64,000 bases of DNA from Corallococcus sp. EGB (GTDB lineage: Bacteria; Myxococcota; Myxococcia; Myxococcales; Myxococcaceae). Shown here in pieces: positions 29,710-39,271 of the stretch. The DNA lies in assembly GCF_019968905.1 (NCBI RefSeq), contig NZ_CP079946.1, positions 682,001 through 746,000 on the forward strand, in the 5' to 3' direction. The notes below the pieces were generated by a model. That model saw only the letters and a list, made by a program, of their open reading frames with translations. It was not told the origin of the DNA and did no database searches. Made by a program: the position numbers and the translations under genes. The first letter of the stretch is position 1; every line of letters starts with the position of its first letter.

Positions 29710-30501
29710 TCAGGGCGACGCGGTTGCTTCCGCGTCGTCCCGGGGGGCGCCCAGGTGCTGGAGGAACCACTCCCCGGCGAGCGCGGCCACCTGCTCCAGC
29801 TCCGACTCCTCCTCGAAGTGGTGGGTGGCGCCCGGGATGATGGCCATGCGCTTGTCGGCGCGGAGCGCTTCATGGGCCCGGTGGTTGATGTCCAGGCCCA
29901 GCGTGTCCGCGCCGCCCACCAGGAGCAGGGTGGGGGCCTGCACCTTCGGCAGCACCGCGCCTGCCAGGTCCGGGCGTCCGCCGCGCGACACGACGGCCTC
30001 CACCTGGTCGGGCCGGAAGGCCGCGGCCGCCAGCGCCGCGCCCGCGCCGGTGTGCGCGCCGAAGTAGCCCACGCGCAGGCCCGAGGTGAGGGGCTCGCGC
30101 TGGAGCCACCGCGCCGCGCCCGCCATGCGCATGCCCAACAGGCCCACGTTGAAGCGCAGCTGCCGCGTGCGGCGCTCCTCCATCTCCTCGCGGGTCAGCA
30201 GGTCCATCAGCAGGGTGCCCAGCCCCATCGCCTGGAACAGGCTCGCGGTCTGCGCGAGCCGTGGACTCTGGAGGCTGCTGTCGCTGCCGCGCGCCAGCAC
30301 CACCACGCCCCGGGCCCCCGCGGGCACCGCCAGCCGCCCTCGGACGAGGACGGAATCATCGACCGGCACCTGCACCTCGCGCTCCAGATGCGTGCGCGAC
30401 GCCGGTCTGACACCACGTTGCGCCTGCGACTCCCGCGCCTCCTCCCACTCGTGGTCCTGCCCCACCGCCTTCAACCCCGTTCGTGACCGGGGACCTGGCA
30501 T
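29710..30501 (-). CDS. Degenerate dienelactone-hydrolase-like alpha/beta protein (nucleophile lost)
   Basis: 263 residues from ATG 30501, chosen for its GGAGGAG ribosome site 5 bp upstream. It shares most blocks with the intact hydrolase at 6304: LLMDLLTREE, VVSRGGRPDLAGAVLP, PTLLLVGGADT, IPGATHHFEEE (His227). But the nucleophile elbow reads Gly-Ala-His150-Thr-Gly where the paralogue has Gly-Ser-Ser-Thr-Gly, and the oxyanion His-Gly is changed to Arg-Gly (LARGSDSS). It is therefore probably not a Ser hydrolase; it may be a binding protein. An N-terminal extension of about 40 charged residues is unique to it. Confidence 0.75.
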   Translation of the reverse strand: MPGPRSRTGLKAVGQDHEWEEARESQAQRGVRPASRTHLEREVQVPVDDSVLVRGRLAVPAGARGVVVLARGSDSSLQSPRLAQTASLFQAMGLGTLLMDLLTREEMEERRTRQLRFNVGLLGMRMAGAARWLQREPLTSGLRVGYFGAHTGAGAALAAAAFRPDQVEAVVSRGGRPDLAGAVLPKVQAPTLLLVGGADTLGLDINHRAHEALRADKRMAIIPGATHHFEEESELEQVAALAGEWFLQHLGAPRDDAEATASP

Positions 30502-30666
30502 ACAGGCTCCTCCCGTCTGCGTTTGGCTGATTACAGCGTCCGGCTGAGTCACAGTCTGGCCACGGCCCCTTCCGGTGTGACCTGCCGCAAGGTGCCGGGT
30601 GTCCAGCGTAGGACAGGCCCGCGGGACAGGGGAGGACGCCTGGGGTGGGGGCCGGCCGCCGGGACG

Positions 30667-31713
30667 TCAGGGCTTCGTGGCGACCACCAACTCGAAGGGG
30701 CCGGGGAGCACGTGCGCGTGCGTGAAGCCCGCGGCGGTGAGCGCCTCCAGGTAGAACTCCACCTCGCGCAGCCGGCTCACGCACGTGTCCACGCCGATGA
30801 GGAAGTAGGACCAGAAGAACTGGGCCGCCAGCCGCTCCGGGGTGCGGAACTCCTCGCAGATGAGCACGCGTCCGCCGGAGGGCAGGGCGGTGAAGGCCGC
30901 CTGCATCAGCGACCGCGCCACCTCCGCGGGCCAGTCATGCAGCACGCGCACGAAGGACAGCGCGTCGTAGCCCCGGGGCAGCGGCTCCTTCAGGAAGTCG
31001 CCGCCCACGAAGCCCAGCCGTCCGGCGGAGAGGCCCGCGCGCTCGCGCGTGCGCGCGACGAGGGCTTCCGTGGCGGGCAGGTTGTAGACGTCCACGGAGA
31101 GCGACGGGTGCTGGCGCAGCAGGGCTTCCGCGAGCGTGCCGTCCCCGCCGCCCACGTCGAGCAGCCGGGCCTCGGAAGGCCACAGGGCGCCCGCGTGCGC
31201 GCGGAACGTCTCCAGGATGGGGCCCAGGCCCGCGGCCATGCTGGCCTCGAAGCCCTCCACCTGTTCGGGCGTGCGCGGAGGCCAGTCGAACGACGCGGCG
31301 GACATGGAGTGCTGGCCGTGCAGCGTCTCCGGCAGCCGGCCATGCAGGGCCCTCCAGTCGTACTTCTCGCGGTCGCGCTCCAGCGACCCCGGGCCGAGCA
31401 CGGCTTCCGCCGCCGCGCGCAGGCCGGGCGCGCCGCGGTAGCGCGCCGCCTCCAGCGCGTCGCAGGTCTGCTCGCGCTGCACCAGTCCCAGGCTCTCCAG
31501 GCAGTCGAGGAACTTGTAGAGCCGCTTGGGGACCAGGCCGTGCTTCGTGGCCAGTTCTCCCAGCGTCACGGGGCCGGGCTCCAGCGCGTCCAGCAGGCCC
31601 AGCTTCAGCGCCGTCTCCACGACGTCCATCGCGCGGGCGCCGTTGAACAGCAGGTGCAGGAGGGCGCGGGGCGACGGCGCCTCACGCGTGAAGGGAGGCA
31701 TCGGGCTGCTCAT
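30667..31713 (-). CDS. SAM-dependent methyltransferase of the O-methyltransferase (Methyltransf_2) type
   Basis: 348 residues from ATG 31713, overlapping the kynureninase stop. N-terminal winged-helix dimerisation domain (ALKLGLLDALEPGPVTLGEL) and a SAM site LLDVGGGDGTLAEALLR (about residues 185-200), then FVGGDFLKEPLP and VLHDWP with the catalytic His position of the family, and GRVLICEEF. These enzymes methylate small aromatic or polyketide products; the hydroxykynurenine C-methyltransferase of actinomycin precursor pathways is of similar size. Operon position after kynureninase and dioxygenase suggests a kynurenine, anthranilate or hydroxyanthranilate substrate. Confidence 0.85.
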   Translation of the reverse strand: MSSPMPPFTREAPSPRALLHLLFNGARAMDVVETALKLGLLDALEPGPVTLGELATKHGLVPKRLYKFLDCLESLGLVQREQTCDALEAARYRGAPGLRAAAEAVLGPGSLERDREKYDWRALHGRLPETLHGQHSMSAASFDWPPRTPEQVEGFEASMAAGLGPILETFRAHAGALWPSEARLLDVGGGDGTLAEALLRQHPSLSVDVYNLPATEALVARTRERAGLSAGRLGFVGGDFLKEPLPRGYDALSFVRVLHDWPAEVARSLMQAAFTALPSGGRVLICEEFRTPERLAAQFFWSYFLIGVDTCVSRLREVEFYLEALTAAGFTHAHVLPGPFELVVATKP

Positions 31714-32855
31714 GCGACCTCCTTGCGCTGCTCTTCGAGGAGCGCGTCCATGAAGGCGTCCACTTCCTCGGGCGTATTGTAGAAGTGCGGCGCGGCGCGC
31801 AGGTAGCCGCGGTGGCTGCAGATGAAGCCGCGCGCCACCAGCCGCTGGGTCACCTGCGCGTCGCCGGGGAAGCCCAGCGCCACCACGCCGCCGCGCTGGT
31901 GCGGCTCGCGCGGGGTCACCACGCGGAGGCCCGCCGCGTCCGCGCGCGCCATCAGCCGGTCGGTGAGCTTCAGCGAGTGCTCGCGCACGGCCTGGATGCC
32001 CACGCCCTTGAGCAGCTCCAGCCCGGGCCGGGACAGCAGCACCATGAGCGGCGCGGGCGTGCCGCCCATCATCCGCCGCGCATCCGGCGCGTAGTCCGTC
32101 GTCTGCTGGAAGCCGAGCGGCGAAGCTCCGGCCAGCCACCCGGTGACGGCGGGACGGAGCGCGGGCAGGAGCCCCGGGCGCACGTACAGGAACGCGGCCT
32201 CGGAGCCGCCCAGCCACTTGTGCGCGCCGCCCATGAGGAAGTCCACGTCGAGCGCGCGCACGTCGATGGGGACGGTGCCCACGGTCTGGTACGCGTCCGT
32301 GGCGATGAGGGCCCCGGCCGCGTGCGCCGCCTTCGCGATGCGCGCCAGGTCCAGCACGGCGCCGGTGGCGAAGGCGCCGTGGGCGACGCAGACGATGAGG
32401 GTGCGCGCGTCGATGGCCGCCTCCAGCGCGGCCTCGTCCACGCGGCCGTCCTTCGACGGGACGACGACCAGCTCCGCCCCGTAGCGCGCGAAGCCCTTCC
32501 AGATGAAGGGCACCGTGGGGAACTCCAGGTCGGTGATGACGACGCGGCGGCGCTCTCCGGTGAAGTCCAGGCACGAGGCCAGGCGCGACAGGTGCGCGCT
32601 CAGGTTGGTGTCCAGCGCCACGGAGCCGGCCGGCGCGCCGATGAGGTCCGCCACGCCGTCCGCGTACGCCTGCATCTGGGACAGCCAAGAGTCCCAGGTG
32701 TCATCGCGCCACGCGCGCATCGTCCCCCAGTACTGCGCCAGCACGCCCTCCACGGCCCGGGGCAGCGCCCCGGTGGAGTTGCTGTTGAGGTACGTGCAGG
32801 TCTGGAGCAGCGGGTACTCCGCGCGCAGGGCTCCCGGGAGTGCCGCGTCGCTCAC
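31710..32855 (-). CDS. kynU: Kynureninase-like PLP enzyme (aminotransferase class V fold)
   Basis: 381 residues. YLNSNSTGALPRAV at the N-terminus, PLP-binding Asp187 in IATDAYQTVGTVPIDV and Schiff-base Lys213 in GGAHKWLGGSEAAFLYVRP fit the kynureninase branch of fold-type I enzymes. Kynureninase splits kynurenine into anthranilate and alanine. At 381 residues it is somewhat shorter than classical enzymes (about 415). The start overlaps the dioxygenase stop by ATGA, so both are translated together, which supports the role. Other class V lyases cannot be excluded by sequence alone. Confidence 0.8.
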   Translation of the reverse strand: MSDAALPGALRAEYPLLQTCTYLNSNSTGALPRAVEGVLAQYWGTMRAWRDDTWDSWLSQMQAYADGVADLIGAPAGSVALDTNLSAHLSRLASCLDFTGERRRVVITDLEFPTVPFIWKGFARYGAELVVVPSKDGRVDEAALEAAIDARTLIVCVAHGAFATGAVLDLARIAKAAHAAGALIATDAYQTVGTVPIDVRALDVDFLMGGAHKWLGGSEAAFLYVRPGLLPALRPAVTGWLAGASPLGFQQTTDYAPDARRMMGGTPAPLMVLLSRPGLELLKGVGIQAVREHSLKLTDRLMARADAAGLRVVTPREPHQRGGVVALGFPGDAQVTQRLVARGFICSHRGYLRAAPHFYNTPEEVDAFMDALLEEQRKEVA

Positions 32856-34507
32856 GACTGGCTCCGCAGCTCCTGGGCGTGGGCGTATGCCAGCGCGTGC
32901 GCGGCGTGCGGATGCGTGTGCGGCCCATGCGGCGCCGGAGCATGGGCCGCGTGCGCCACCGGCGCGGGAGCCGCCGCCGCATGCGGTGCCGGAGCGTGAG
33001 GCACCGGAGCGTGGGCCGCGTGCGCCGTCGGAGCATGGAGCGCCGCATGCGGTGCCGGAGCGTGAGGCACCGGAGCGTGGGCCGCGTGCGCCGTCGGAGC
33101 ATGGGGCGCCGCGTGCGGGGCGTGGATCACCGGAGCCGGCTGTGCGTGCGCCACCAGGGCATGCGGTGCGTGCACCGTGGCCGCATGGGCCGCCGGGGCA
33201 TGCTGCGCGTGCATCGGGCAGCCGCCGGCGCGAGCCTCATGCGCGTGAGCCGTGGCCGCATGGGCCGCCGGGGCGTGCACCGTCGCCGCATGCGCGTCCG
33301 AAGCATGGGCCGGGGCCGCGTGGGCCGCAGCGGAGTGCGCGTGGGGCGCGGGCGAGTGCGCCGCCGAAGCGTGCACCGCCGCCGCGTGGGGCGCGGGCGA
33401 GTGCGCCGCCGCCGCGTGGGCCACCGGAGCGTGCGCCATGGGCGCATGCGCCGCCGGGGCGTGCTGTCCGTTCATCGCGTGCATCGGGCAGCCGCCGCCG
33501 GTGCGCGCCTCTTGCGCCTGGGCCGGGGCCGCGTGCGCCACCGCCGCGGCATGCTGCGCGTACGCCGCCACGGGCACGTGATGCGCCTGGGCCACGGCCG
33601 CGTTCGCCGCCTGCGCCTGGGCCACGGCCGCGTGGGCCATGGGCGCCGCCTGCGCCACGGGCGCGTTCATCGCCGCGTCGTTCATCGCGTTGATGGCGGC
33701 CATCGGGCAGCCGCCGCCGGTGCGCGACTCACCCGGCGCGTAGCCACCCTCGCGCTTCCAGCCCGCGGTCAGCTCCACGCGCACGTCCCACAGCGCGCGG
33801 AACAGCGGCAGGTTCATCCGCGCCTGCAGCACCTGGGACGGCAGCCCGTCCAGCGCCTTCACCGTCCGGTCGATGCCAATCGTCCGGCGCACCAGCTGGT
33901 AGTGCGCGTACAGCCACCCCTGGAAGCACTCATCCACCGTCACCAGCTGCTCGCAGACGTGCTGCAGGTCCTTCGGCCCCCCAGCCGAATAGACCTGGAA
34001 CAGCGTCAGCCCGCGGCGCGCCAGCATCCGCTCCATCGCGGACTCCAACCCGTCCGCCGCGTGGCGAAGCGTGTTGTAGCCCGGCGACTCCTGCCCGCTG
34101 CCGTTGCCCAGGCTGCGGCGGATGACCTGGTACTCGGCCGGGGTCATCGTCTCCAGGATGGACATCTCCGCGCTGATGCTGGAGAGGATCTTCTGCACCC
34201 GCACCAGGCGCGCGGACACCGCCCACAGCGCGTCGCGGTCCAGCTCCGCCACCACCTCCACCATCTCCCGCGACGCCAGCTTCAGGTACAGCTCCTGCGA
34301 CTGGTGGACGATCTGGAACATCAGCTCGTCATGGGACACCAGCTCCCCTTCCGGCGACTGCAGCGACAGCAGGGTGCCCGTGTGCAGGTACCGCTCGTAA
34401 TCCAGCTCCCCCTTGCCCACCCACTTCTTCAACATCACGTTGAACAGCGGTTGAGTCAGCTCCTGCTTAAGCTTTTCCGCGTGACTGTAATCAGTGGACG
34501 TGTGCAA
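32852..34507 (-). CDS. Tryptophan 2,3-dioxygenase with a long His/Ala/Pro-rich tail
   Basis: 551 residues, against about 280 for ordinary bacterial enzymes. Residues 1-262 are the dioxygenase: LDYERYLHTGTLLSLQ, FQIVHQSQELYLKL (distal His68), and WLYAHYQLVRRTIG with His202 as the likely proximal haem ligand. The usual Thr-Gly-Gly-Ser substrate loop after that His is not seen; DRTVKALDGLPSQ stands there. Residues 262-551 are about half Ala, with about 49 His and many Pro, and carry three GGCPM motifs (Cys267, Cys340, Cys430). Cys-Pro pairs resemble haem regulatory motifs, so haem or metal binding is possible. Start is TTG 34507 with a GGAGG site 5 bp before. It opens the tryptophan degradation operon. 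Confidence 0.85.
   Translation of the reverse strand: MHTSTDYSHAEKLKQELTQPLFNVMLKKWVGKGELDYERYLHTGTLLSLQSPEGELVSHDELMFQIVHQSQELYLKLASREMVEVVAELDRDALWAVSARLVRVQKILSSISAEMSILETMTPAEYQVIRRSLGNGSGQESPGYNTLRHAADGLESAMERMLARRGLTLFQVYSAGGPKDLQHVCEQLVTVDECFQGWLYAHYQLVRRTIGIDRTVKALDGLPSQVLQARMNLPLFRALWDVRVELTAGWKREGGYAPGESRTGGGCPMAAINAMNDAAMNAPVAQAAPMAHAAVAQAQAANAAVAQAHHVPVAAYAQHAAAVAHAAPAQAQEARTGGGCPMHAMNGQHAPAAHAPMAHAPVAHAAAAHSPAPHAAAVHASAAHSPAPHAHSAAAHAAPAHASDAHAATVHAPAAHAATAHAHEARAGGCPMHAQHAPAAHAATVHAPHALVAHAQPAPVIHAPHAAPHAPTAHAAHAPVPHAPAPHAALHAPTAHAAHAPVPHAPAPHAAAAPAPVAHAAHAPAPHGPHTHPHAAHALAYAHAQELRSQS
32981..33112. repeat. 66-bp tandem duplication inside the dioxygenase tail
   Basis: 32981-33046 and 33047-33112 are two head-to-tail 66-bp copies with one base difference, encoding 22 residues each that differ only by Leu/Pro. 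The rest of the tail is built from looser His-Ala-Pro units. The near identity of the two copies shows recent expansion in frame. Confidence 0.85.
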
Positions 34508-34599
34508 GGTGCCTCCGGGGGGACGCAGGCAGTTCGTGGTGGGTGAAGCGCGCCCCAGTCCCGAAAGAACAGTGAGCGCGTAAATCTCTAGAAGCGACT

Positions 34600-34720: not shown

Positions 34721-35140
34721 TCAGCTCTCAACCGGCGAGGGATTCCGGTTGGGCGACGCCGGGCGCGGCTTCAGCCGCATGGCGTTGAGCTTCTGGGCCA
34801 GGTCCGCGCCCTGGACGCTCTTGGAGATGTAGCCGTCCGCGCCGGAGGCGATGGCCAGCGAGCGCAGCTTGGCCTCGTCCGAGGCGGAGTAGAGGATGAA
34901 GCGGGTGCCCGGGGGGGCGTACTGGCGCGCCAGGCCCACGACCTTGTCCCCCTTGAGGGCGGGGAAGTTCACGTCGATGAGCACGAAGTCCGGCTCGGAG
35001 GCGCGCACGATGTTGGACACGCCCAGCGCGGACGTATGGGTCTGCACGTCGAACCCGTACGCGCTCAGCGAACGCTGCACGAGGTCGAGCAGGTCCGGAT
35101 CGTCGTCCACCACCAGGACGCGCGGTTTTGCTTCAGCCAT
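34721..35140 (-). CDS. Single-domain response regulator, paralogue of 23816-24211
   Basis: 139 residues: a receiver domain with VVDDDPDLLD, phosphoacceptor Asp in FVLIDVNFPALKG, FILYSASDEAKL and Lys in GYISKSVQG, plus a short basic/Pro tail. No output domain. ATG 35140 lies inside the end of the hybrid kinase gene (8-bp overlap), so its production is coupled to the kinase, which should phosphorylate it. Strong resemblance to the receiver beside cheB suggests the two came from one duplication and may share partners. Confidence 0.92.
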   Translation of the reverse strand: MAEAKPRVLVVDDDPDLLDLVQRSLSAYGFDVQTHTSALGVSNIVRASEPDFVLIDVNFPALKGDKVVGLARQYAPPGTRFILYSASDEAKLRSLAIASGADGYISKSVQGADLAQKLNAMRLKPRPASPNRNPSPVES

Positions 35141-38096
35141 GGCTTCTCCCTAGGTACTGACGAATCGTCTCGATGAGCTGATCGCGGTCCAGGGGCTTGG
35201 TCATGTAGGCCGTGCAGCCGGCCGCATGCGCCTTGTCCTGGTACTCGCGACCCGCGTGCGCCGTGACGGCGATGACGGGCACATTCTGCCCATCCGGCAA
35301 CGCGCGGAGCCTGCGGGTGACTTCCCAGCCGTCGAGCCGCGGCAGGGACAGGTCCATGAGGATGAGGTCCGGCGCGTCGTTGCGGGCGCGCTCCAGCCCC
35401 TGCTCGCCGTCCTCCGCCTCGATGAGGTCATACAGCCCGCCCAGGTAGCGGCGGACGATGTCGCGGTTCTGCTCGCTGTCCTCCACGTACAGCACGCGGG
35501 GCAGCTTGCCCGCGCTGGCAGCCCGCTGGGACATGAGCAGCCCCTTGGCCTGCGAGATGACGTCCTCCAGCGCGGTGCCGCCCTTGCGCACGAAGCCGGC
35601 GAAGCCGTCGCGCAGGAGCGCCTCTTCGTCTGGAGACAGCGTCTTGCCGGTGAGCACCACCACCGGCACGGAGAGCTTCTCCGCGCGCAGCCGGCGCAGG
35701 ACCTCGAAGCCGTCCAGGTTCGGCATCATCAGGTCCAGCACCACCAGCGACGGCGGCGACACGCGCGCCTTGAGCAGCGCGTCCTCGCCGTTGCGCGCCT
35801 CGTTGGTGGAGAAGCCCGCGCGGCGCAGGTTGCGGCTGACCAGCTCGCGCGTGGCCGCGTCGTCGTCCACCACCAGCACGTCGCCCGTGGCGGCCGTGCC
35901 CGCGGAGGCCAGGCTCTTCTGCACCACCTCCACCAGCCGCTCCGGCTCCACCGGCTTCACCAGGTACTCGCACGCGCCCAGGCTGAAGCCGCGCGCGCGC
36001 TGCTCCTCCACCGACACCAGGATGACCGGGATGGGCGCCAGCGCGGGGTCGCTCTTCAGCTGGCTCAAGACGGACCAGCCGTCCATGCGCGGCAGGTGGA
36101 TGTCCAGCAGGATGGCCTGCGGCTTCACCTCGCGGGCCAGCTTCAGCGCGGCGATGCCATCATTCGCCGCCACCACCTTGAAGCCCGCGGGCTCCAGCTG
36201 GCCGGTGACGAGCTGCTGGATGAGCACGTCGTCGTCCACCACCAGCACCGTGCTGCCCGGCCGCGCCATGGGCGCCAGCCGCTGGGCCACGTCGTGGAAG
36301 GGCACCAGGCGCTCCGTGGCGTGCGGGCTGTCCGCGCCCACCGTCTTCGCCAGCACGTCCGGCAGCCGCACCGTGAAGGTGGAGCCGCGGCCCAGCGTGC
36401 TCTTCACGTCCACCGTGCCGCCCAGCACGCGCGTCAGCTCGCGCACGATGGCCAGGCCCAGTCCCGTGCCGCCCACCTTGCGCGTGGTGGTGCCGTCCAC
36501 CTGGCGGAACTTCTCGAAGATGAAGGGGAGCTGATCCGACGGGATGCCCACGCCGGTGTCCTCCACCGTCATCAAGAGCTCGCCGCCGCCCGCGGGCACC
36601 ACCGTGAGCGCGACCTCACCCGTGTCCGTGAACTTGGCCGCGTTGCTCAGGAGGTTGAGCATGATCTGCCGCAGCTTCAGCGCGTCGGTGCGGATCTCCT
36701 TCGCCTCGCTGTCCACGTTCACCGTGAGGGCCACGTCCTTGCCCTTCAGGTACTCCTTCACGGTGGCCATGCACTCGTCGGCCAGCTCCTGCACGTCCAC
36801 CGGCTCGGTGACGACCTCCACGCGGCCCGCTTCAATCTTGGACAGGTCCAGGATGTCGTTGATGAGCGCCAGCAGCGTCTTGGCGTTCGTCTTCACCACG
36901 TTGAGGTCGCGCCGGCCGTGCGGCGTCAGGCGGCCGCCCTCCTCGCGCATGAGCAGGTCGCAGTAGCCGATGATGCCGTTGAGCGGCGTGCGGATTTCGT
37001 GGCTGAAGTTCGCCAGGAACTCGCTCTTGAGCCGCACGGCGCCCTCCGCCTCGCGGGCGCGCTCCTCCTCGTTGCGCTTGGCGACGGAGAGCTCCTGGGC
37101 CAGCCGGTCCAGGTCCTCGTTCTGCTGGCGGATGATCTCCATCTGGAGCGCGCGCTGCTGATAGCTCGCCAGGGAGCGGGCGGACACCGCGCGCGTCTTC
37201 TTGATCTCCTCCAGGCTGGCGGCCAGCTGCTTGTTGGCGGCCTCCAGCTCATCCTTGGAGGCGCGCAGGGCCGCCTCGTTGTTCTTGCGCTCGGTGATGT
37301 CCTCCGTGACGCCCATCACGAAGCGCGCGACGCCCTGGTCATCCAGCAGCGGAATCTTGCGCGTGGCGAAGATGCGGTCCACGCCGTCCGCGCGGGCCAC
37401 CTCCTCGAACGTCTTCATCCGGCGCGTCTCGAGGATTTCGGTGTCGATGGCGATGAACGAGTCCGCCTGCTCCGGCGGGAAGTAGTCGTGGTCCAGCTTC
37501 CCCAGCAACCACTCCTTGGTGACCTTGAAGGCGTCCGCGAACGTCTTGTTCACCACCACCAGCCGGCGCGTCTCCGCGTCCTTCACGAACAGCACGAAGG
37601 GCAGCGCGTCGATGATGTTGCTGAGCAGGTAGTTGGTGCGCTTGAGCTCCACGCCCGTCATCTGGTGCTGGGCGCGCTCGGCGTGCAGGCGCAGCTCGCG
37701 CGCCACCACGAAGGGCAGGTGGCCGTAGCGGTCTTCCGTGACGTAGTCGCGCGCGCCGGCGCGCATCACCGCGCCCAGCGTGTCCTCGCTCCAGGAGGGC
37801 GCGCTCACCACGAAGGCCGTCTCGCGGCCGCGCTTCACCCAGGCGGCCTGCACCGCCTCCCAGCCCATGCCCGGCAGCTCGGAGCCCACCAGCACCAGCG
37901 CCCAGGGGCGCTCCAGCGCCGCCTCCAGGGCCTCGGCCGTGGTGACGGGCTCCAGCGTGAGCATGGAGAGGATGTCCTCCTTCTCCAGCGCGTCGCGCAT
38001 GGCGCGCGTCTCACGCTCGCTTCCCACCAGGAGCAGGGACAGGGTGTAACCAAGAGGCGCTTCGGCGTGGGCCACGTCGAACGGATGCTGGGCCAT
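35133..38096 (-). CDS. Hybrid histidine kinase with N-terminal pseudo-receiver and three C-terminal receivers
   Basis: 987 residues from ATG 38096. Order: receiver-like domain 18-140 in which Gly71 replaces the phosphoacceptor Asp (ALVLVGSELPGMG); PAS/PAC 165-305; coiled coil 305-355; phosphoacceptor His366 in FLANFSHEIRTPLNGII; ATPase with NLLSNAAKF, DTGVGIPSDQ and GGTGLGLAIV to about 590; then three receivers, with Asp in ILLDIHLPRMDG, VVLDLMMPNLDG and LILMDLSLPRLDG. No membrane span. It is preceded by a FIST protein and followed by a single receiver, 11 bp and -8 bp away, so all three form one operon. Confidence 0.93.
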   Translation of the reverse strand: MAQHPFDVAHAEAPLGYTLSLLLVGSERETRAMRDALEKEDILSMLTLEPVTTAEALEAALERPWALVLVGSELPGMGWEAVQAAWVKRGRETAFVVSAPSWSEDTLGAVMRAGARDYVTEDRYGHLPFVVARELRLHAERAQHQMTGVELKRTNYLLSNIIDALPFVLFVKDAETRRLVVVNKTFADAFKVTKEWLLGKLDHDYFPPEQADSFIAIDTEILETRRMKTFEEVARADGVDRIFATRKIPLLDDQGVARFVMGVTEDITERKNNEAALRASKDELEAANKQLAASLEEIKKTRAVSARSLASYQQRALQMEIIRQQNEDLDRLAQELSVAKRNEEERAREAEGAVRLKSEFLANFSHEIRTPLNGIIGYCDLLMREEGGRLTPHGRRDLNVVKTNAKTLLALINDILDLSKIEAGRVEVVTEPVDVQELADECMATVKEYLKGKDVALTVNVDSEAKEIRTDALKLRQIMLNLLSNAAKFTDTGEVALTVVPAGGGELLMTVEDTGVGIPSDQLPFIFEKFRQVDGTTTRKVGGTGLGLAIVRELTRVLGGTVDVKSTLGRGSTFTVRLPDVLAKTVGADSPHATERLVPFHDVAQRLAPMARPGSTVLVVDDDVLIQQLVTGQLEPAGFKVVAANDGIAALKLAREVKPQAILLDIHLPRMDGWSVLSQLKSDPALAPIPVILVSVEEQRARGFSLGACEYLVKPVEPERLVEVVQKSLASAGTAATGDVLVVDDDAATRELVSRNLRRAGFSTNEARNGEDALLKARVSPPSLVVLDLMMPNLDGFEVLRRLRAEKLSVPVVVLTGKTLSPDEEALLRDGFAGFVRKGGTALEDVISQAKGLLMSQRAASAGKLPRVLYVEDSEQNRDIVRRYLGGLYDLIEAEDGEQGLERARNDAPDLILMDLSLPRLDGWEVTRRLRALPDGQNVPVIAVTAHAGREYQDKAHAAGCTAYMTKPLDRDQLIETIRQYLGRSHG

Positions 38097-38107
38097 GGTC
38101 TGGTGAC

Positions 38108-39271
38108 TTAGTTGGAGCCGAACGCGAGCACGGTCAGCGTGGTGTTGATGTGGAAGCCCGAGTAGATCTCGAATTGCACATTCATCCCAGCCGCGGAGGG
38201 TGCAAGTTTCAAGGATTCCGAGAGCTTCGGGATCTGACCCTGGGCCTGCGCGTACCACATGCGTCCGCTGCAGTGGAACAGGAGGGCGGCCTGGGGGTTC
38301 TGCACCCGCCTGGGCAGCTCCTCCTGGAAGAAGTCCCGCGTCATGCCCGCCAGGTCGCCGGCCTTCATCAGGTCCAGCTCGCTGCCCTCCTCCAGGAGGT
38401 TGGCGAACAGGATGGAGCCGTCCTCCAGGGGGCGCCACGCGGCGCGGATGAAGTACTCGCGGCCCACCTTGAGCGCGGTGGGGCGCAGCGCGAAGCCGCC
38501 CGGCCGGCCGAACTCCAGGTCCGCGATGTTCTCCACGCCCAGGATGTCCGCGTAGCGGCGGGCGGCGGGCTTGCCGTCGATCTCCAGGGCGCGCGTGTGC
38601 GTCTCGTCCACCTTGGTGATGGTGAGCCGCTCGCCGGTGGGCACGTACCAGTGCGAGCGCAGCGCGGCCCAGGGGGCGTTCGTCTTGAACAGGGCCACCA
38701 GCACGCCGTCGCCGGCGACCTCACCATCCACGTGGATGAGCGCGGACTGGCGCGCGGGGTCCGTCTCTGAATCGCTGGCGCCGCCGCCCACGAGCACCAG
38801 GGTCTGGTTCTTCTCCAGGATGCCCAGCAGCAGCTCTTCCTTCTTGTAGCGGAAGCCGTCGTCAATCACGAGGCCCACGTACCGGCGCGCGTCCAGGTCC
38901 TGCTGGCGCACGCCCAGCTCCTCGCACGCGCGCTTGATGGCCATGGCGCCCGCGGCGATGGCGTCCCCGGTCAGGCCTGAGCCCAGGCCCAGGCCCACCT
39001 CGAAGTCACCGGAGAGCGCGCCCAGCACCACGCTGTTCTCGTGGATGCCGTTGTTGTCCAGCTCGCCGGCGGTGGTGGCGCCCACCAGCCGGGTGTCCTT
39101 GGGCAGCCGCTCGCGCACCGCGCGGTTGAGCGCGCGCTGGTCGCGCTGCCGCGACGCGAACAGCGTGACCAGCTTCGGCGCGGGGCCGTGCAACTGGCGC
39201 AGGAGGTCCTCCGCGACGGCGACCGGATCCGTAAGGGTGGAGCGAGCCGTCTGCATCTTCACATGCGCCAT
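38108..39271 (-). CDS. FIST-domain sensory protein
   Basis: 387 residues. FIST_N part: LVTLFASRQRDQRALNRAV and LVGATTAGELDNNGI, followed by VVLGALSGDFEVGLGLG. FIST_C part: YADILGVENI, RAAWRPLEDGSILFANLLEEG, LLFHCSGRMWYAQ. FIST proteins are cytoplasmic small-ligand sensors, thought to bind amino acids, that pair with signalling kinases or chemoreceptors. It lies 11 bp upstream of the hybrid kinase, so it probably presents the signal to it. Confidence 0.88.
   Translation of the reverse strand: MAHVKMQTARSTLTDPVAVAEDLLRQLHGPAPKLVTLFASRQRDQRALNRAVRERLPKDTRLVGATTAGELDNNGIHENSVVLGALSGDFEVGLGLGSGLTGDAIAAGAMAIKRACEELGVRQQDLDARRYVGLVIDDGFRYKKEELLLGILEKNQTLVLVGGGASDSETDPARQSALIHVDGEVAGDGVLVALFKTNAPWAALRSHWYVPTGERLTITKVDETHTRALEIDGKPAARRYADILGVENIADLEFGRPGGFALRPTALKVGREYFIRAAWRPLEDGSILFANLLEEGSELDLMKAGDLAGMTRDFFQEELPRRVQNPQAALLFHCSGRMWYAQAQGQIPKLSESLKLAPSAAGMNVQFEIYSGFHINTTLTVLAFGSN

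Follow-up and report, generated by a model that had tools for sequence, protein, structure and literature searches.

We examined a 64,000-nucleotide stretch of the genome of Corallococcus sp. EGB (contig NZ_CP079946.1, positions 682,001 to 746,000), which we call the window. It contains a gene for an oxygenase with a 290-residue C-terminal tail that is rich in histidine, alanine, and proline. We use TDO2 as a working name for this gene. The tail is a real part of the protein. Judging from its relatives, the long His/Ala/Pro form arose recently by expansion of in-frame repeats, and the element of the tail that is constrained is a short (G)C-P-x(0-1)-H motif, while the His-rich bulk varies. Thus, a single (G)CP-x-H motif is the older state, and it was elaborated locally into the three motifs and 49 histidines of TDO2. 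Tentatively, we propose that this putative Cys-Pro-His site binds heme and captures or buffers it for the enzyme. The catalytic domain falls within an established superfamily; in the open-licence PMC literature, judged mostly at the level of listings, we found no description of the Cys-Pro-His tail, the repeat expansion, or the conserved operon.

The tail is a real, repetitive part of the protein

TDO2 has 551 codons on the minus strand, from a TTG start (with CGGAGG a few bases 5' of it) to a stop codon at 32854-32852 that overlaps the start of the next gene, KYNU, which encodes a kynureninase-like protein. Positions are window coordinates, that is, coordinates on the contig (C1) minus an offset of 682000. 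An earlier note on this DNA had described a tail with 49 His, few charged residues, and GGCPM motifs at Cys267, Cys340, and Cys430, and we confirmed each of these features (Table 1); the coordinates given there are correct as well, but the gene is read from the minus strand. From the first GGGCPM to the C-terminus there are 288 residues, including 118 Ala, 49 His, 38 Pro, and 3 Cys, and only 8 of these residues are charged (3 Glu, 3 Arg, and 2 Asp). The two other cysteines of the protein, at positions 185 and 194, lie outside GGCPM. Tandem Repeats Finder reported periods of 15, 18, 21, 24, 30, 39, 45, and 66 bp within the tail, every one a multiple of three, and these repeats match the five-residue spacing of the histidines: 24 of the 48 intervals between tail histidines are exactly 5.

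Similar sequences are rare in this 9.43-Mb genome. The GGCPM pattern (with Met as ATG) has six matches, three of them in the tail. We rejected the idea that GGCPM is common to other proteins of the genome: the remaining matches are a 42-codon frame (L180), an open reading frame (ORF) with HPLGGCPMG (L181), and one other ORF (L182). HPLGGCPMG is, we presume, typical of GMC oxidoreductases. A 204-residue piece of the tail had no match in the genome but itself at E ≤ 1 (150 of 214 candidates were scored), and we set aside the idea that such tails are a generic low-complexity habit of this genome. With a narrower His pattern we hit two other places but not the tail of TDO2 itself, so this pattern is uninformative. 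A Pfam scan of the tail at E ≤ 0.001 gave no match.

The tail is also present in other myxobacterial homologues, as the earlier note had thought worth checking. In nine Corallococcus genomes (the window's own included), the frame stays open over 195-328 residues past the LF..LW..R sequence at the end of the catalytic domain. The open frame alone is weak proof of the tail, because the opposite strand is open too: an Arg-rich ORF of 568 codons (32840-34546, plus strand) runs antisense to the whole of TDO2 and looks like a GC-rich codon shadow. But we rejected a frameshift or other artefact on account of the nine related genomes with open tails, which share the same ends and have a ratio of nonsynonymous to synonymous polymorphism (pN/pS) of about 0.3 there (see below).

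In an AlphaFold model of TDO2, the predicted local confidence (pLDDT) is below 50 for most of residues 286-537, and the short tail of a Myxococcus homologue (L101, residues 265-282) was also modelled with low confidence. Because confidence is low in both, the models suggest that the tail is largely disordered. The helix modelled for residues 268-280 of TDO2 (see below) speaks against complete disorder.

A short motif is kept while the rest of the tail turns over

We compared homologues from the window's family, where 56 of 96 genomes encode TDO2 at 59% identity or above, and we counted tail length from the LF..L[WY]..R block at the end of the domain. The catalytic domains of tail-less, short-tailed, and long-tailed members are 58-97% identical to that of TDO2, and long and short forms inside one genus have domains that are 82-97% identical. 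Tail length changes quickly. The 15 Corallococcus homologues have 49-328 residues after the domain, and this range is why we regard the 290-residue form as a recent expansion; the nine long Corallococcus tails contain 29-62 His. The 27 Myxococcus/Pyxidicoccus (g19) homologues have 39-70 residues with one Cys-Pro and 0-4 His, and the five g3/g6 homologues have 27-40. Outside the family, TDO2 of actinomycetes stops 5-10 residues past the domain, while Sorangium has 27 and Nannocystis 27-32. On a quick tree (with long branches flagged among the outgroups), the tail switched between long and short at least 5 times, with a threshold of 85 residues.

Long tails elsewhere in the family have other compositions. 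In the two Citreicoccus-type homologues (L048 and L049), the 351-367-residue tails have charged, His-rich repeats (for example, HAEPHRRDEAPR) in place of the Ala/Pro pentads, and two Cys-Pro motifs are kept. The seven g7/g8 homologues (L077-L082 and L084) have independent tails of 141-226 residues that are Pro-rich or Gly/Ser-rich, contain DPWS[KR]PEPP units, and lack Cys.

In contrast to the bulk of the tail, the Cys-Pro is present without exception in Corallococcus, Citreicoccus, and Myxococcus/Pyxidicoccus (44/44, from 15, two, and 27 homologues; 40/40 distinct tails) and is absent from the remaining 12 family homologues (0/12). A His follows within 4 residues in 40 of the 44. These 44 homologues form one branch of the quick tree, with support of 91 by the Shimodaira-Hasegawa-like approximate likelihood ratio test. 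Since the motif was probably gained once in this clade, 44 of 44 represents conservation and not 44 events. All 76 tail cysteines precede Pro (57) or Met (19), and 68 of them have Gly before; the surrounding sequence varies. When we shuffled the residues of each tail (2000 rounds), Cys-Pro appeared on average in 7.9 of the 44 tails and never in more than 17; for Cys-Pro with a His no more than 4 residues after, the average was 2.3 tails and the highest count 8. In the 31 short tails, the motif begins 8-20 residues before the C-terminus.

The nine long Corallococcus tails align well only at the start (GGGCPMAA), at a second GGGCPM block, and at the end (HAQELR). At the two alignable ends, pN/pS is 0.33 and 0.31, as compared to 0.14 in the domain; these values are for the ends only, and the alignment of the repeats is uncertain. 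They support selection on both ends of the tail. Overall, the earlier note's interpretation of the tail was partly supported: Cys-Pro is kept, usually with a His, as in the motif of the regulator Irr (see below), but conservation does not extend to the 49 His or to the presence of three copies.

We noticed two other cases in these comparisons. Two very similar Nannocystis homologues end with DERCPVAL (L123) and DERRPVAL (L124), so a Cys-Pro arose separately in L123. And a contig titled Comamonas sp. KCTC 72670 (BNCN01000008.1, L104) carries a Myxococcus-type TDO2 in the same position as in one genome of the window's family (G066); the title looks wrong.

The catalytic domain resembles MarE

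The earlier note called the gene a tryptophan 2,3-dioxygenase (TDO), which fits at the family level only. Residues 1-260 match PF03301 with 77.5 bits (the gathering score is 34.9), while the equivalog model for the dioxygenase, TIGR03036, gives 113.2 bits against a cut-off of 390.7. The genome, which is a single contig, has a second, canonical TDO gene at C1:9318213-9318998; it scores 385.1 with TIGR03036, just below the cut-off, as read with some pre-start residues. TDO2 is a divergent paralogue and not the genome's canonical TDO, and because of this, the earlier note's suggestion that the tail tunes tryptophan breakdown is doubtful.

The heme pocket is predicted to be intact. In the alignment, Y37, Y40, F64, H68, Y126, R130, S137, G138, and H202 of TDO2 correspond to Y24, Y27, F51, H55, Y113, R117, S124, G125, and H240 of the TDO of Xanthomonas campestris (XcTDO), residues whose roles we partly presume; H240 is the heme ligand. 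H202, H68, F64, R130, Y37, and Y40 are invariant across 21 aligned rows. In a structural alignment made with a model of L101 (pLDDT 86), identity to XcTDO is about 29%. Unlike TDO2, XcTDO has the active-site loop GTGGS and about 51 more residues between 136 and 221 (about 86, versus about 35 in TDO2). All 21 rows have ALDG in place of GTGGS. In TDO, this loop holds the amino group of the substrate, and when the loops of TDO and MarE are swapped, products of dioxygenation give way to those of monooxygenation or the reverse (PMC11904535 and PMC12312684, excerpts). In other words, a gene that was named for its family as a tryptophan dioxygenase turns out to lack the loop that steers dioxygenation.

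A Foldseek search with the L101 model returned MarE chains at ranks 1-5 (PDB 9ca3 and 8vyy; best E = 8e-12, TM 0.73/0.81). MarE is a heme-dependent aromatic oxygenase that forms a 2-oxindole in maremycin biosynthesis. Like the TDO2 family, MarE lacks GTGGS, has a shorter middle (its alpha-6 is simplified, according to excerpts of PMC11904535), and has a Cys near its C-terminal end. However, it is just 26% identical, and its loop is SLGGR instead of ALDG. These comparisons are best explained if TDO2 is an aromatic oxygenase built like MarE, with a predicted His-ligated heme.

MarE also bears on the earlier note's remark that no described dioxygenase has such a tail. The remark is too strong, since a C-terminal stretch of MarE (270-284) contains a reactive cysteine, Cys280. 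That stretch is short, and in the available excerpts of PMC11904535 no function of its own is shown for it; deleting it lowers efficiency and activity remains.

We also found a distant clade of short TDO-like proteins (L129-L170; for example, from Shewanella, L130, Acidobacteria, L135, Mesorhizobium, L150, and Endozoicomonas, L159) that are about 40% identical and lack GTGGS. The 10 of these 42 proteins that we aligned have SLKGR where MarE has SLGGR. In 17 of the 42 loci, some of which are on short contigs, there is a gene nearby that is 24-39% identical to KYNU. The dioxygenase annotation of this clade deserves testing.

Possible functions of the tail

We rank heme capture or buffering first, although with less than even confidence, because Cys-Pro with a His is the classic heme regulatory motif, MarE is heme-poor, and the activity of TDO and of indoleamine 2,3-dioxygenase (IDO) depends on heme. 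A heme regulatory motif combines Cys-Pro with a nearby His or Tyr at an exposed site, and exposure of the tail motif is suggested by the low confidence of the models. In excerpts of PMC11442138, the motif of Bradyrhizobium Irr is Gly-Cys-Pro-Trp-His-Asp with a His cluster, and the tail resembles it in having Gly-Cys-Pro-x-His and clustered His. But Irr is a transcription regulator, and the motif of TDO2 is in the tail of an enzyme, where heme binding is putative. In general, Cys motifs with an extra His or Tyr bind heme more tightly (PMC6356037, excerpts). Before reconstitution, MarE contained only about 20% heme (PMC11904535), and the activity of human and other mammalian TDO and IDO depends on heme content (PMC10220489, excerpts).

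On our reading, the (G)-C-P-x(0-1)-H motif arose in the ancestor that Corallococcus, Citreicoccus, and Myxococcus/Pyxidicoccus share. Within Corallococcus, one subclade then underwent repeat expansion, which multiplied the His/Ala/Pro pentads around the motif and raised it to two or three copies. The site would bind heme reversibly, catching or buffering it for the adjoining enzyme, whose relatives include heme-poor members, and the His-rich expansions would add weak ligands and length. A stronger version is a self-loading heme enzyme, in which a disordered Cys-Pro-His arm would capture heme and hand it over to, or meter it for, its own active site, and which in Corallococcus would be amplified into a multi-site sponge for heme or metal. 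We doubt this version.

Several observations weigh against a heme site. Four of the 44 homologues (L038, L039, L041, and L063) have no His close after the Cys-Pro, and L063 has no His in its tail at all. The family persists elsewhere without a long tail or Cys-Pro (10/10 actinomycete loci, Sorangium, and g3/g6). Our shuffle control ignores kinship. A net positive charge is of benefit to the heme motifs described so far (PMC6356037, excerpts), and the TDO2 tail has hardly any charge. Residues 268-280, directly after Cys267, were modelled as a helix (with pLDDT around 80 for 271-280), so the first motif may not be free, and the models are of single chains without heme. Finally, CPMH resembles the CPMHP core of a heavy-metal-binding domain.

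Since the tail turns over rapidly and the long tails of other genera differ chemically, one rival has to be taken seriously for most of its length: it may be mainly low complexity under weak selection. In-frame repeats would have expanded at a permissive, disordered C-terminus, and the Cys-Pro-His would be a minor relic or a binding patch of little effect. We consider this somewhat unlikely. The range of 49-328 residues inside one genus, the Pro- or Gly/Ser-rich tails of g7/g8 and the charged ones of Citreicoccus, the five or more changes between long and short, and the repeats of 15-66 bp are all as expected under weak selection. It does not explain why Cys-Pro is in 44 of 44 tails with every tail Cys in a Cys-Pro or Cys-Met pair, why pN/pS is around 0.3 at both ends, or why a similar tail was not found elsewhere in the genome.

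Because heavy-metal-binding domains (PF19335) have CPMH as their core, we retain metal binding as another rival. With its Cys and His, the motif would be a site for soft transition metals (Cu, Zn, or Ni), the oligomer and the His repeats would provide further sites, and it would store metal or guard the heme enzyme from it. The same genome encodes YTCPMHPEV in L186, and the 29-62 His of the nine long tails also fit with metal binding. However, the tail lacks the second half of that domain (CPxCG) and has no Pfam match, the His-rich part is missing from most relatives, and there is no metal gene among the five neighbours that we scanned. (A genome search for PF19335 gave three places, none of them in the window.) Overall, we think that a metal site is unlikely.

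Two other explanations are weaker. By analogy to MarE, a tail Cys might be a thiol switch or a cross-link that links or regulates the oligomer: Cys280 of MarE, the nearest solved fold, is near the C-terminus, is reactive, and cross-links in vitro, and removing residues 270-284 makes MarE less efficient. But Cys280 was reported as a source of heterogeneity during purification, not as a function (PMC11904535, excerpts); the likeness of the two tails is by description only; and the Pro and His after the tail Cys would be left unexplained, which makes this improbable. A role of the long tail as a flexible tether, keeping KYNU close for the hand-over of substrate, is very improbable. KYNU adjoins in 20/20 family members whose tails exceed 85 residues, and such a tail is in 0/32 members without KYNU, but these counts have no statistical weight because there are only 1-2 independent contrasts on the tree, and both four Corallococcus and the 10 actinomycete loci combine KYNU with a short tail (5-10 residues after the domain in the latter).

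How heme is delivered to bacterial heme enzymes is poorly understood. For heme capture or buffering by the Cys-Pro-His site, the natural tail-less, short-tailed, and long-tailed variants are ready constructs for the effect of a tethered site on heme loading, which makes this question directly testable.

A three-gene operon

TDO2 heads a module of three genes, for an oxygenase, a kynureninase-like lyase, and a methyltransferase (OMT), that is shared with actinomycetes, where the oxygenase lacks the tail. In the window, the genes overlap by 4 bases at both junctions (Table 1).

Table 1. Features of TDO2 and its neighbourhood, in window coordinates
Feature	Position	Strand	Evidence
TDO2, divergent heme-dependent aromatic oxygenase (predicted) with C-terminal tail	32855..34507	-	ORF and translation; PF03301 and TIGR03036 scores
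TDO2 catalytic domain, residues 1-260	33728..34507	-	Alignments; AlphaFold models; Foldseek with model of homologue L101
TDO2 low-complexity His/Ala/Pro tail, residues 262-551	32855..33724	-	Composition; model confidence; no Pfam match
GGCPM copy 1 (Cys267), then AAINAM	33701..33715 (C1:715701-715715)	-	Genome pattern search
GGCPM copy 2 (Cys340), then HAMN	33482..33496 (C1:715482-715496)	-	Genome pattern search
GGCPM copy 3 (Cys430), then HAQH	33212..33226 (C1:715212-715226)	-	Genome pattern search
In-frame DNA repeats encoding xHAxx-like pentads	32931..33664	-	Tandem Repeats Finder; His spacing
KYNU, kynureninase-like pyridoxal phosphate enzyme, 381 aa	31713..32855	-	PF00266, PF22580; start overlaps TDO2 stop (GTGA)
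OMT, S-adenosylmethionine methyltransferase of the Methyltransf_2 family	30670..31713	-	PF00891, PF08100; start overlaps KYNU stop (ATGA)
Response regulator directly upstream of TDO2	34724..35140	-	PF00072
Hybrid histidine kinase, PAS and three receiver domains	35136..38438	-	Domain scan

KYNU matches a kynureninase of known structure (PDB 1qz9) with 117.7 bits. It is below the TIGR01814 cut-off, which another gene elsewhere in the genome exceeds. In a scan of named genomes, we kept the best 80 of 347 relatives, and among their loci the order oxygenase-KYNU-OMT was found in 10/10 actinomycete loci (L116-L122 and L125-L127), 2/2 from Nannocystis, and 1/1 from Sorangium. A locus from a metagenome-assembled Labilithrix genome (L128) has KYNU; OMT was not seen on its short contig.

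Within the family, OMT had a match in the fetched stretch for 56/56 loci (at 6.5 and 8 kb in two of them) and KYNU for 24/56. KYNU was not found in the fetched stretches of the 27 Myxococcus/Pyxidicoccus and five g3/g6 genomes. When we searched the whole genomes at E ≤ 1e-50, the 27 Myxococcus/Pyxidicoccus and the four g6 genomes again gave no KYNU, and the g3 genome gave a distant one (42% identical). Upstream of TDO2, 55/56 family loci have the histidine kinase (the contig ends at the remaining locus) and 48/56 have the response regulator; we found neither gene in the loci from actinomycetes, Nannocystis, or Sorangium. The response regulator is probably not part of the module.

The module probably makes a small molecule from tryptophan or indole, with the substrate inferred. 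The nearest described systems are the SibP/SibL and mymC/mymQ/mymB modules of sibiromycin and mycemycin biosynthesis, which convert tryptophan to a methylanthranilate; for mycemycin, a 269-aa oxygenase (mymC), a kynureninase, and a 351-aa methyltransferase are encoded in one cluster (PMC5867642, excerpts). SibP and mymC are likened to TDO2 by description only. OMT matches RedM with 85.5 bits and SibL with only 57.3 bits, and since SibL ranks 17th, below RedM, we rejected the idea that OMT is a sibiromycin-type 3-hydroxykynurenine methyltransferase. The gene neighbourhood of MarE is, we believe, unlike that of TDO2. No formamidase match was found among 10 flanking ORFs that we scanned (from five actinomycete or myxobacterial neighbourhoods and one more). 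We also rejected a parallel with auxin degradation (iad), whose oxygenase is Rieske-type and not a heme enzyme (PMC12633357, excerpts).

After the operon, on the same strand, lies a gene for a dienelactone-hydrolase-like protein (29710-30552), which is also found at this place in Corallococcus relatives; some Myxococcus loci have it too, with lower identity.

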